A DNA stretch of 41,280 nt. Origin: Sulfurimonas sp. SAG-AH-194-C20. Its GTDB lineage: Bacteria > Campylobacterota > Campylobacteria > Campylobacterales > Sulfurimonadaceae. Numbering within the stretch: the stretch's first letter is position 1; each line of letters opens with the position of its first letter. The translations under genes and the position numbers were made by a program. The notes beneath the pieces are model-generated. The model did not search any database and was not told the origin of the DNA. It saw only the letters and a program-made list of their open reading frames with translations. The stretch covers positions 1 to 41,280 of the forward strand of contig NZ_JAEMVD010000009.1 in the NCBI RefSeq assembly GCF_029215975.1, written 5' to 3'. Positions 21,569-24,910 of this stretch are shown piece by piece.

Positions 21569-21603
21569 AAGTATGTATTAAATTAGAATATACTAATATA
21601 CTT
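21569..21603. promoter_or_regulatory. Candidate operator/promoter of the arsR-led metal cluster
   Basis: AAGTAT (21569-21574) and ATACTT (21598-21603) form the ends of an imperfect inverted repeat around an AT-rich centre that itself contains TTAG-AATATA-CTAA (21584-21597). Two TATACT boxes (21589-21594 and 21597-21602) could serve as -10 elements, so a bound ArsR-type repressor would cover the promoter. AAAGGAAG (21607-21614) is the ribosome binding site. The operator call is inference from position. Confidence 0.4.
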
Positions 21604-21617
21604 ATAAAGGAAGTAGC

Positions 21618-21965
21618 ATGGATAAAATGATTTCTTGTTTTAGAGTAGAAGTTGATGATAACTTAATCGTTAAAGCAAAAGAGACACTAAATCAGGACTT
21701 AACTGAGTTAGAGCAACAAGCAAAACTTTTTGCTCTCTTAGGAAATGAGGTGCGTTTAAAAATTATTCGCTTATTCTTATGTTACGAAAAAATGTGTGTT
21801 TGTGATTTAAGTGATGTTTTAGAAATGAACCAGTCTCCGATATCTCAACACTTACGTAAGCTAAAAGATGGTGGTCTTCTTGTAAATAAAAGAGATGGAA
21901 TGACAGTTTTTTATTCAGTTTCACCTCAGATGAGAGAGATACTTACAAAAATAGTTGAAGGATAA
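21618..21965 (+). CDS. ArsR/SmtB-family metal-sensing repressor
   Basis: This 115-residue winged-helix protein should repress its own operon and release DNA on metal binding. The recognition region is SDVLEMNQSPISQHLRKLK (about 65-83), and the wing follows (LVNKRDGMTVFYSV). Cys60 and Cys62 in MCVCDL are the alpha-3 metal site seen in ArsR and CadC. Further cysteines at 7 and 55 could complete a site for a soft metal such as Hg(II), As(III), Cd(II) or Pb(II). It is the first of five co-directional genes, and the lipoprotein gene starts three bases after its stop. The context (MerP-like and MerT-like proteins) points to a thiophilic metal; which one cannot be read from the sequence. Confidence 0.9.
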   Translation: MDKMISCFRVEVDDNLIVKAKETLNQDLTELEQQAKLFALLGNEVRLKIIRLFLCYEKMCVCDLSDVLEMNQSPISQHLRKLKDGGLLVNKRDGMTVFYSVSPQMREILTKIVEG

Positions 21966-21968
21966 ATT

Positions 21969-22286
21969 ATGATAAGTAAAAAGGTAATAAGTGGAATTTT
22001 AGTGAGTGTATCACTTGTGTTTATATCGTGTAGTGAACAAAATAAAAAGACTAAAACTATAGTAGTAAAAAAGTCTAATGTTGTTTTAAAAAAGATAGGT
22101 GTTGATGGTATGACTTGTATGGGTTGTGAAGTTACACTTGAGGGTGCGATATCCAAGATAGAAGGTGTTACAAAAGTTAAAGCATCTGCTGTAGATGGTA
22201 GTGCTCAAGTAGAGTTTGATAAAACTAAAACAGACTTAGACACGATAGTAAAAACTATCCAAGACTCAGGATACAAGGCGAAGTAA
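21969..22286 (+). CDS. Heavy-metal-associated (MerP-like) lipoprotein
   Basis: This 105-residue protein has a lipoprotein signal with the lipobox VFISC, so Cys21 would be lipidated and the protein anchored on the periplasmic side of a membrane. A linker rich in lysine follows, then one heavy-metal-associated domain from about residue 38. Its binding loop is GMTCMGC (Cys50, Cys53), and the C-terminal turn is DSGYKAK. By analogy with MerP it would capture a soft metal ion and hand it to the MerT-like protein encoded two genes on. MerP is normally soluble, so membrane anchoring is a difference. The stop overlaps the next ATG by one base (TAATG). Confidence 0.88.
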   Translation: MISKKVISGILVSVSLVFISCSEQNKKTKTIVVKKSNVVLKKIGVDGMTCMGCEVTLEGAISKIEGVTKVKASAVDGSAQVEFDKTKTDLDTIVKTIQDSGYKAK

Positions 22287-22918
22287 TGAGCCTCTTTTTT
22301 AACTTTGGGGAGAAAATACCGGAGTTTGATTTTAGAGTAATAAATGAGAGAGAAGCAAGAGCTAGTGCTGGCATTATGTTTTTACTGGGGATACTGAGCC
22401 TTTTTTCTGTCTTTACTCTACGAACACTTATCTGGGCAGAGTTTTTTTCCATAACTTTTATACTAGAGTTTATCGTTCGGATGTTTATAAATCCAAAGTA
22501 TGCACCTTATATGCTTTTAGGTTCTTTTTTTGTTACAAATCAAAAGCCGGAATGGGTTCAAGCAAAACCAAAAAAATTTGCTTGGTTTTTAGGACTGATT
22601 TTGGGTGCTACTATGACTTACTATATCATCTTTGATGTGATTTCTTTAGTGCGTTTGAGTATCTGTTTTGTCTGTTTGACATTACTCTTTTTAGAGTCAG
22701 CTTTTGGTATCTGTCTGGGATGTTTAATGTACAAGCAACTTCAAATCAAGTTAAATCGATGTCCAGGTGGTGTGTGTGAAGTTTTAAGAGATAAAAAACC
22801 TGTATTTAAAAGGTTTATGCTTCTTGGCTTTTTTATTATTTCATTTGTACTTATATATTTATTATTAGAATATGTAAAATATGCTGACATTATAAATGTA
22901 ATTATTGTTGATGAATAA
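22286..22918 (+). CDS. DUF4395 integral membrane protein, cysteine-rich
   Basis: This 210-residue protein matches the DUF4395 family, whose function is not established. About four hydrophobic helices are visible, near residues 30-50, 52-68, 100-130 and 170-195. The family hallmarks are the N-terminal DFRVINEREARASAGI and the Cys-rich region. Three cysteine pairs stand out: Cys127/Cys130 in a helix, Cys143/Cys146 (GICLGC) and Cys159/Cys164 (CPGGVC). CxxC pairs in a membrane protein within a metal operon suggest thiol redox chemistry or metal relay; that is inference. It is translationally coupled to the lipoprotein gene, and the MerT-like gene follows after 11 bases. Confidence 0.82.
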   Translation: MSLFFNFGEKIPEFDFRVINEREARASAGIMFLLGILSLFSVFTLRTLIWAEFFSITFILEFIVRMFINPKYAPYMLLGSFFVTNQKPEWVQAKPKKFAWFLGLILGATMTYYIIFDVISLVRLSICFVCLTLLFLESAFGICLGCLMYKQLQIKLNRCPGGVCEVLRDKKPVFKRFMLLGFFIISFVLIYLLLEYVKYADIINVIIVDE

Positions 22919-22929
22919 AGGAAACTATT

Positions 22930-23298
22930 ATGATAGATAAAAAAATTATTACAGGTGTAGTAGCCTCGGTTGGAGCTTCTTTATGTTGTATTACACCCAT
23001 TTTAGCACTAGTATCTGGCTCTAGTACCTTAGCATCTAGTTTTACATGGCTTGAGCCATTTCGTCCTTATTTGATACTTTTAACAGTAGTTGTTTTGGCT
23101 TATGCTTGGTGGGACAAACTTAGAGTTAAGAGTCAAGATATTGAGTGTAAGTGTGAGAGTGATGTTGAAAAAGTCTCTTTTTGGCATAGTAAACTTTTTT
23201 TAGCACTAGTAACGCTTTTCTCAATTATAATGCTTGCATTTCCTTACTATAATGCTGTTTTTGAAGATGATAAACCTAAAATCATCTATGTAGATTAG
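22930..23298 (+). CDS. MerT-like mercuric ion transporter
   Basis: MerT carries Hg(II) from periplasm to cytoplasm. The 122-residue protein has the MerT layout of three membrane helices. Helix 1 contains the cysteine pair Cys19-Cys20 followed by ITPILAL, helix 2 follows the LEPFRPY segment that is typical of MerT, and helix 3 is near the C-terminus. The cytoplasmic loop between helices 2 and 3 carries Cys73 and Cys75, matching MerT's second cysteine pair. Both pairs needed for ion transfer are thus present. The ribosome binding site is AAAGGAAA. No merA reductase gene is present in the window, so delivered metal must have another fate, perhaps the CopZ-type protein encoded next. Confidence 0.85.
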   Translation: MIDKKIITGVVASVGASLCCITPILALVSGSSTLASSFTWLEPFRPYLILLTVVVLAYAWWDKLRVKSQDIECKCESDVEKVSFWHSKLFLALVTLFSIIMLAFPYYNAVFEDDKPKIIYVD

Positions 23299-23307
23299 GA
23301 GTTCCTT

Positions 23308-23793
23308 ATGCAATTTTTTACAAAAAAAGAAGAAAACAATGAGGGTTGTTGTTCTGTGCAACCAAAAGGTAAGTTAGAATGTCCTGTGTGTGGAGAAAAA
23401 GCAAAGGGTGTTCTGAGTAAAACACTTGAGTACCTTTTAGTAGGTGAGAGTAGAGATAAACTAAAGTGTTTGGATGGGTTTTACTACTGTAAAACTTCCT
23501 CATGTAAAGTAGTTTATTTTCGCCACGAAGAGATACTTTTACAAAAAGACATAAGTGTTGTTGTTGGTTTAAAAGATGGGGCTTCTCCGGCTACGGTTTG
23601 TTACTGCTTTGAGTGGACTAAAGAGAAAATCAAAAAAGAACTTGAGCAAAATAGTGAAACTATCGCTCTTGAAGATATAAAAACTAAGATGCAAAATCCT
23701 GGTTGTTCTTGTGAAACACTCAATCCTAGTGGCGGATGTTGCCTAGGTGATGTTACCAAAGCTATAAAAGAGATACAAAATAACTTAAAATAA
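23308..23793 (+). CDS. CopZ-type iron-sulfur/zinc protein without a metal-chaperone domain
   Basis: This 161-residue protein resembles the N-terminal half of Archaeoglobus CopZ, which carries a zinc site and a [2Fe-2S] cluster and is thought to reduce copper. Thirteen cysteines are present. CPVCG (25, 28) with Cys54, Cys61 and Cys66 in GFYYCKTSSCKVVYF resembles the zinc-binding domain. VCYCF (98, 100), with CSC (133, 135) and GGCCLGDV (144, 145), resembles the BFD-like [2Fe-2S] domain. The C-terminal heavy-metal-associated domain of CopZ is missing here, but a separate lipoprotein in the operon provides one. It is the last gene of the cluster, nine bases after the MerT-like gene. The domain match is from memory of the family and is good; the function is inferred. 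Confidence 0.8.
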   Translation: MQFFTKKEENNEGCCSVQPKGKLECPVCGEKAKGVLSKTLEYLLVGESRDKLKCLDGFYYCKTSSCKVVYFRHEEILLQKDISVVVGLKDGASPATVCYCFEWTKEKIKKELEQNSETIALEDIKTKMQNPGCSCETLNPSGGCCLGDVTKAIKEIQNNLK

Positions 23794-23851: not shown

Positions 23852-24910
23852 ATGGCATATAAGTACGAAATATTGATAGTAGATGATGTGAGTGAAAATA
23901 TTCAAGTTGCTATAAGTATACTCAAAAAGAAAGAGTATAACTTCTCCTTTGCTCTGAATGCAAAACAAGCTATAGAAATCATTAAAACTAAACGTTTTGA
24001 CCTTATGTTACTTGATGTAATGATGCCGGAAATTGATGGTTTTGCACTTGCTAAAATGATAAAAAATACAGATGCTATTAAAGATACTCCTATCATATTT
24101 TTAACTGCAAAAGTTGATATTGAGTCAGTAGAAGAGGGCTTTAATCTTGGTGCTGTTGATTATGTAACTAAACCTTTTCATCCTATAGAATTAAAATCAC
24201 GTGTGGCAAACCATCTTGAACTTTATAGATACAGAAGAGAGCTTTCATATAATAATAAAAAACTCACAAAAGATATAAGTACTGCTAGAACACAGTACCT
24301 TTCAGAATTAGATATCGCACAAAAAGAGATTATTTTCATACTAACAGACATATTAGAAGCAGATAGTGGCGAGACAGCTTGCCATGTCCGTCGTGTTGCA
24401 TATATATCTAGAAAAATAGCTCTACTCGATGGTTACTTAGGTGAAAGTGAGATAGAAATTCTTTCTTTAGCTGCTCCTTTACATGATATAGGCAAAATTT
24501 TAATAACAAATGAGATTCTACATAAACCGGGTAAGTTGACAGATGAAGAATTCACTATAATGAAAGAACATCCTGCACATGCAATAAAAATATTAAAAAA
24601 ATCTGATAGAGAAATTATTAAAGCTGCTAGAAGTATAGCTTATGAGCATCATGAAAACTATGATGGTAGTGGCTATCCACAAGGGCTTAAAGGTCAAGAT
24701 ATCCATATATATGCAAGAATCGTCGCAATTGCTGATGTTTTAGATGCTTTGACGCATGAACGATCATACAAAGATGCTTGGAGCTTTGAAGAAGCAGCTA
24801 GACATATCATCAAGCTTAGTGGCACAAAGTTTGACCCTCATCTAATTCAACTTTTTAGTAATAACTTAGAATCATTTAAAGAAATTATAGAAGGTGACTC
24901 ATGTCTTTAA
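23852..24910 (+). CDS. Response regulator with HD-GYP cyclic di-GMP phosphodiesterase domain
   Basis: This 352-residue cytoplasmic protein joins a receiver to an HD-GYP output domain that hydrolyses cyclic di-GMP. The receiver (about 1-125) has the acidic pair in VDDV, the phosphoacceptor Asp in LLDVMMPE, and the conserved T and K in FLTAK and YVTKPF. A coiled linker leads to HD-GYP (about 155-345). The metal and catalytic motifs are HDIGK near residue 211 and HHENYDGSGYP, followed by RIVAIADVLDALTH, all intact. Its end overlaps the start of the following kinase gene by 10 bases, so kinase and regulator are very probably partners. Low phosphodiesterase activity until phosphorylation is usual for such proteins. 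Confidence 0.95.
   Translation: MAYKYEILIVDDVSENIQVAISILKKKEYNFSFALNAKQAIEIIKTKRFDLMLLDVMMPEIDGFALAKMIKNTDAIKDTPIIFLTAKVDIESVEEGFNLGAVDYVTKPFHPIELKSRVANHLELYRYRRELSYNNKKLTKDISTARTQYLSELDIAQKEIIFILTDILEADSGETACHVRRVAYISRKIALLDGYLGESEIEILSLAAPLHDIGKILITNEILHKPGKLTDEEFTIMKEHPAHAIKILKKSDREIIKAARSIAYEHHENYDGSGYPQGLKGQDIHIYARIVAIADVLDALTHERSYKDAWSFEEAARHIIKLSGTKFDPHLIQLFSNNLESFKEIIEGDSCL

Follow-up and report, generated by a model that had tools for sequence, protein, structure and literature searches.

The window analysed here, a stretch of 41,280 nt, belongs to the MAG of a Sulfurimonas-like, sulfur-oxidising bacterium, with 90 contigs and 65.8% completeness. Its segment from 21618 to 23793 is occupied by five intact open reading frames, all read from the + strand and separated by almost no gaps (Table 1). 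The initial annotation had assigned these co-directional genes to named families and had noted paired cysteines in every product. Both statements were confirmed: all five proteins match family profiles (Pfam and NCBIfam-type models) above the curated cut-offs, and the cysteine pairs are present throughout. The gene following the cluster, at position 23852, encodes a response regulator and is unrelated to it, as had also been stated.

Table 1. Features of the cluster, in window coordinates
Feature	Position	Strand	Remarks
Putative operator, ATTAG-AATATA-CTAAT	21582..21597	+	36 nt 5′ of the ArsR start; right half extends to ATACTAATATACTT
ArsR/SmtB-family repressor, 115 aa	21618..21965	+	NF033788, 77.6 bits (cut-off 55 bits); PF01022; Cys7 and CVCDL (C60, C62)
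Lipoprotein, MerP-type HMA protein, 105 aa	21969..22286	+	PF00403; NF033556 (MerP half); GMTCMGC
DUF4395 membrane protein, 210 aa	22286..22918	+	PF14340, 99.1 bits (gathering score 24.5 bits); 1 nt overlap with the preceding stop; C127/C130, C143/C146, C159/C164
MerT, 122 aa	22930..23298	+	PF02411, 56.6 bits (gathering score 32.9 bits); NF033556 (MerT half); Cys 19/20 and 73/75
CopZN, CopZ-type Zn/[2Fe-2S] protein	23308..23793	+	NF047645, 108.9 bits (cut-off 100 bits); PF18423; N-terminal CC and further Cys; HMA domain absent

Mer-type proteins and their cysteine-rich partners

The model for fused MerTP, NF033556, is matched by two separate genes of the cluster, its positions 1-109 by MerT (157 bits) and its positions 103-185 by the lipoprotein (68.5 bits). 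With the score divided in this way, neither chain attains the 180-bit threshold set for a single fused protein. MerT is 69% identical to the MerT of a Sulfurovum locus (L140), and its C-terminal end, DKPKIIYVD, is the MerT-MerP linker of fused MerTP. The lipoprotein shares 51% identity with the MerP half of Sulfurovum MerTP, the KTIVVxKxN linker included, and its N-terminus, MISKKVISG, is closest to a MerT N-terminus (score 40, the best non-MerT scoring 26 among about 437 N-termini). In sequence, the lipoprotein resembles a MerTP lacking the MerT core, and it and MerT look like a MerTP that has been split in two. The simplest inference would be duplication of a fused MerTP, followed by loss of the opposite half from each copy. 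The same genome carries a second, divergent MerT and HMA pair behind a transglutaminase-like gene (L043 6753-7384, contig C17 of G000).

CopZN matches PDB entry 2hu9 (E 2e-12), which we take to be the N-terminal domain of Archaeoglobus fulgidus CopZ; Sazinsky is said to have described the function of that domain in 2007. The two proteins have the Zn and [2Fe-2S] domain family in common; unlike A. fulgidus CopZ, CopZN lacks an HMA domain and carries a CC pair at its N-terminus. Its cysteines are conserved, and binding of Zn, of a [2Fe-2S] cluster and of a soft metal is predicted from the family. In other Sulfurimonas, CopZN adjoins copper genes (CusA, a two-component sensor, a multicopper oxidase and a Cu-ATPase), a distribution that counts against a role in mercury handling. 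CopZN is also found within mer sets (L140, L142), and a Planctomycetota plasmid encodes CopZN, MerT and HMA in one chain. The latter protein (L136 3974-5209; CP036351.1, QDV81057.1) is annotated as "merA: Mercuric reductase", the reductase domain being absent. In a Cytobacillus plasmid (L135 4546-5924), a gene for a MerR1-type regulator lies directly 5′ of CopZN and a NUDIX gene, with no merA between.

The six cysteines of the DUF4395 protein (ICFVC, CLGC, CPGGVC) are invariant in seven relatives. Its fold could not be assigned, as the single-sequence model was too poor (pLDDT 61.6) and the best PDB match had an E of 1.6. Sulfurimonas paralogues adjoin ArsR and ArsC, that is, they lie in ars operons, one of them on contig C25 of the window's own genome (L122 2772-4295; a further case is L121 9371-10505), and in Thiothrix a DUF4395 gene sits between GDCCVxC, a gene for a small cysteine-rich protein, and one for a thioredoxin-domain protein. 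The ArsC and ArsR neighbours suggest a role in arsenate reduction or thiol redox; from all these neighbours together, our guess is that DUF4395 gives thiol redox support.

merA and the relatives of the cluster

The initial annotation had described a Mer-like cluster without merA and had named a distant merA under the same control as the finding that would turn it into an ordinary split operon. Mercuric reductase, which with MerT (both cysteine pairs) and a MerP-type HMA protein marks a mer operon, is encoded neither in the window nor in the available two thirds (66%) of the genome, as judged with the TIGR02053 profile and a Sulfurovum MerA query. The description of the cluster holds, and the MerT clade, operator, regulator and merA-bearing relatives presented below add to it. 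The best TIGR02053 match in the genome (66 bits, contig C60) is a thioredoxin reductase, and a 41.7-bit match at about 10 kb of the window lies within a 461-aa open reading frame behind a large glutamate-synthase-like one; neither is merA.

A MerT alignment was scanned over about 85,000 species genomes and the best 80 loci, many of them near-copies, were retained. The nearest are from Campylobacterota, and here there are operons with merA as well as operons without it. The order is ArsR-MerTP-MerA-CopZN in L140, ArsR-MerTP-MerA in a single-contig genome (G264) and MerTP-MerA in L143. In L142 (G344) it is ArsR-MerTP-CopZN, CopZN directly following MerTP; the start of CopZN also follows MerTP at the contig end in L141 (G319) and probably in L144 (G285). 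In a close relative (G319/G374), merA lies on a contig other than that of ArsR-MerTP and encodes a 471-aa protein with no NmerA domain. The MerA proteins of L140 and G264 score above the TIGR02053 cut-off, and those of L140, L143, G264 and G374 have the C-terminal CC pair. No merA was found in G344 (94% complete), G285 or G359. G344 is the nearest well-assembled relative lacking merA, and its MerTP (L142 2508-3206) has an in-frame TGA at codon 48, which counts against the mercury reading. Selenocysteine is ruled out, relatives having Leu at this position; the TGA is a sequencing error or the mark of a pseudogene. The full five-gene order was seen in the window only, among the relatives compared, and this too counts against that reading.

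In a MerT-domain tree, the window falls inside a set of 16 rows with 98% support that includes L140, L143 and G264, where MerA adjoins, together with merA-less Campylobacterota relatives and a branch of MerT-rhodanese proteins; with 121 usable columns, the inner order of the set is uncertain and the end branch of the window is long. No merA was found in eight Sulfurimonas genomes, two of them closed, that carry the MerT-rhodanese branch of this clade. A second MerT system of Sulfurimonas and Sulfurovum (L087, L247-L249, L251-L256) has a MerT of about 300 aa, usually fused to rhodanese; its neighbours are a double SAM-methyltransferase of ~455 aa, an ArsR of another type and often a separate rhodanese.

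Among the best 80 loci, 17 carry a full MerA and 56 a GDCCVxC gene, and none has both. The remaining seven comprise three Campylobacterota loci with CopZN (two of these as a start only) and four that end too early. Classical MerA above the cut-off is absent from 26 of 27 tested genomes of the GDCCVxC type and present in all seven MerA-type controls. Thus, ArsR-MerTP without MerA is a common and stable arrangement. Homology between CopZN and GDCCVxC was considered and rejected, since their profiles agree only in the CPxC stretch, with 3% probability. In six of the 56 GDCCVxC loci we found a 448-aa flavoprotein that is no classical MerA, scoring below the cut-off and missing the CC pair; it is an ortholog of GbsMerA (PDB 8k40), which is encoded in a Gelidibacter ArsR-MerT/P operon and reported to reduce Hg(II) (PMC10587081). 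These orthologs support mercury as the theme of the operon family. The six operons (L187, L188, L191, L194, L197 and L201) read ArsR-MerTP-GbsMerA-type flavoprotein-GDCCVxC, and GDCCVxC may be the "hypothetical protein" gene downstream of GbsMerA in Gelidibacter.

All seven Campylobacterota ArsR-MerT(P) operons checked, including two with an internal merA, carry an exact ATTAG-N6-CTAAT 5′ of ArsR; its distance to the start codon is 35-38 nt in six and 61 nt in L140. When the available genome was searched with a longer operator pattern, the window site was the only strong copy, and a single match with three mismatches (contig C9) lay within the range of the control. The available two thirds of the genome thus yielded neither the distant merA nor a second operator through which it might be co-regulated. 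The operator is absent from the solitary merA of G374. In Bacteroidota, operons with and without merA both have a site before ArsR ending in TTGCTTAAATA, as seen by eye in a few loci. Cysteines C7, C60 and C62 are invariant among 11 regulators from operons of either kind. The window ArsR is 52-65% identical to mer-linked Campylobacterota ArsR and 34% identical to an ars-linked one; by sequence comparison, its subfamily and operator are those of merA-containing operons.

Metal substrate and a possible route without mercuric reductase

We favour, with moderate confidence, a mer-derived operon of the mercury type that would import and handle its metal without mercuric reductase, CopZN being the putative cytosolic acceptor. 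The initial interpretation is thereby borne out in part: the Mer-like cluster lacking merA stands as first described; the metal, previously left open among Hg, Cu and Cd, is narrowed here to Hg(II), our best guess because ancestry, operator and sensor are common to merA operons. On this model, ArsR would sit on ATTAG-N6-CTAAT and be freed once C7, C60 and C62 are occupied by Hg(II) or a comparable thiophilic ion. The lipid-anchored MerP-type protein would capture the ion in the periplasm with its GMTCMGC motif and deliver it to the CC pair in the first membrane helix of MerT, whence it would move to the cytosolic C73/C75 pair. CopZN, with its N-terminal CC, Zn site and [2Fe-2S] site, would then accept the ion from MerT in place of the NmerA domain of MerA. 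DUF4395, with three cysteine pairs at the membrane or close to it, may hold the relay thiols reduced. Finally, instead of being given off as Hg(0), the ion would be retained or go on to thiols, sulfide or an efflux pump. A relay from periplasmic MerP through MerT to a cytosolic acceptor appears plausible, and is supported by the existence of one natural CopZN-MerT-HMA fusion. The substrate and the fate of the metal, which we infer, are the weakest links of this explanation. A bolder version, in which CopZN replaces MerA as a non-flavin enzyme, its [2Fe-2S] cluster and electrons relayed by DUF4395 serving to reduce or precipitate imported Hg(II), seems to us improbable. Cells that take up Hg(II) but have no reductase would be expected to become more sensitive to it, which counts against the mercury reading; in 1979 Nakahara reportedly obtained Hg hypersensitivity from cloned mer fragments. 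We know of no CopZN or DUF4395 partner in MerP/MerT-mediated Hg resistance.

The genes next to CopZN in other Sulfurimonas, for a Cu-ATPase, CusA, a two-component sensor and multicopper oxidase, raise the question of copper or silver: MerT and the HMA protein might import or move Cu, with CopZN acting as a copper chaperone and perhaps as a reductant of Cu(II) as well. The HMA domain does score with CopZ and CopA domains as well, and the solved relative of CopZN is the A. fulgidus CopZ domain, but the cluster has no Cu-ATPase or cuproprotein gene, and it has the operator, sensor and MerT clade in common with merA operons; we regard copper as unlikely. Arsenic or antimony is the reading to which we give least credence. 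CVCDL is the usual metal motif of ArsR and DUF4395 paralogues do reside in ArsR-ArsC operons, contig C25 included, but an arsenite pump and ArsC are missing from the cluster, neither MerT nor HMA is a known arsenic protein, and the regulator is nearer to its mer-linked than to its ars-linked counterparts.

That merA resides in the third of the genome that the MAG does not cover, making this an ordinary split mer operon, has a precedent in the merA of G319/G374, which is apart from ArsR-MerTP, and the MAG is incomplete enough to allow it. Nevertheless, the operator is present in one copy in the available genome, the solitary G374 merA lacks it, and the failure to find merA extends to G344, G285 and G359, so that we consider this improbable. 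Less probable still is a relic that lost merA and is now decaying or without current role: the TGA in MerTP of the G344 ArsR-MerTP-CopZN operon would fit, but in the window all five reading frames are intact, the cysteines conserved and the operator exact, and in Bacteroidota, arrangements without MerA are both widespread and stable. We retain mercury handling without MerA as the preferred reading.

Mer operons controlled by ArsR are known in Bacteroidetes (PMC3466566). With the ArsR-MerTP-MerA operons of Campylobacterota and Bacteroidota the window shares the regulator subfamily and the MerT and MerP domains, with those of Campylobacterota also the operator, and with L140 also CopZN; it differs from them in lacking MerA, in having separate MerT and MerP genes, with MerP a lipoprotein, and in the insertion of DUF4395. 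Bacteroidota ArsR-MerTP-GDCCVxC modules resemble it in combining ArsR and MerT/P with a small cysteine-rich protein at the place of merA, but their partner has no detectable homology to CopZN beyond the short CPxC stretch. The Gelidibacter operon (PMC10587081) likewise joins ArsR and MerT/P to a non-classical partner, there a flavoprotein reductase, of which the window has none. A reductase-free operon is a variant of what is already reported, as MerT/MerP-only Hg resistance was described by Zhang et al. (2020), according to the passage of PMC9283347 that cites them, which presents merT/merP, also found in the window, as an alternative path to Hg resistance and bioaccumulation.

A 2021 survey (PMC8261052) found MerA in one epsilonproteobacterial genome, the example being Campylobacter concisus, and MerA missing from about half of the genomes with MerB, the organomercury lyase. 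The mer operons of Sulfurimonas and Sulfurovum extend that single epsilonproteobacterial case. Handling of Hg(II) without MerA is an acknowledged gap, for which CopZN and GDCCVxC, at or near the place of merA in mer-like operons that otherwise keep operator and sensor, are two natural candidates for the cytosolic partner. If CopZN did replace MerA, mer operons lacking merA would be complete detoxification systems. As for metagenomes, the presence of merT and merP does not imply mercury volatilisation.
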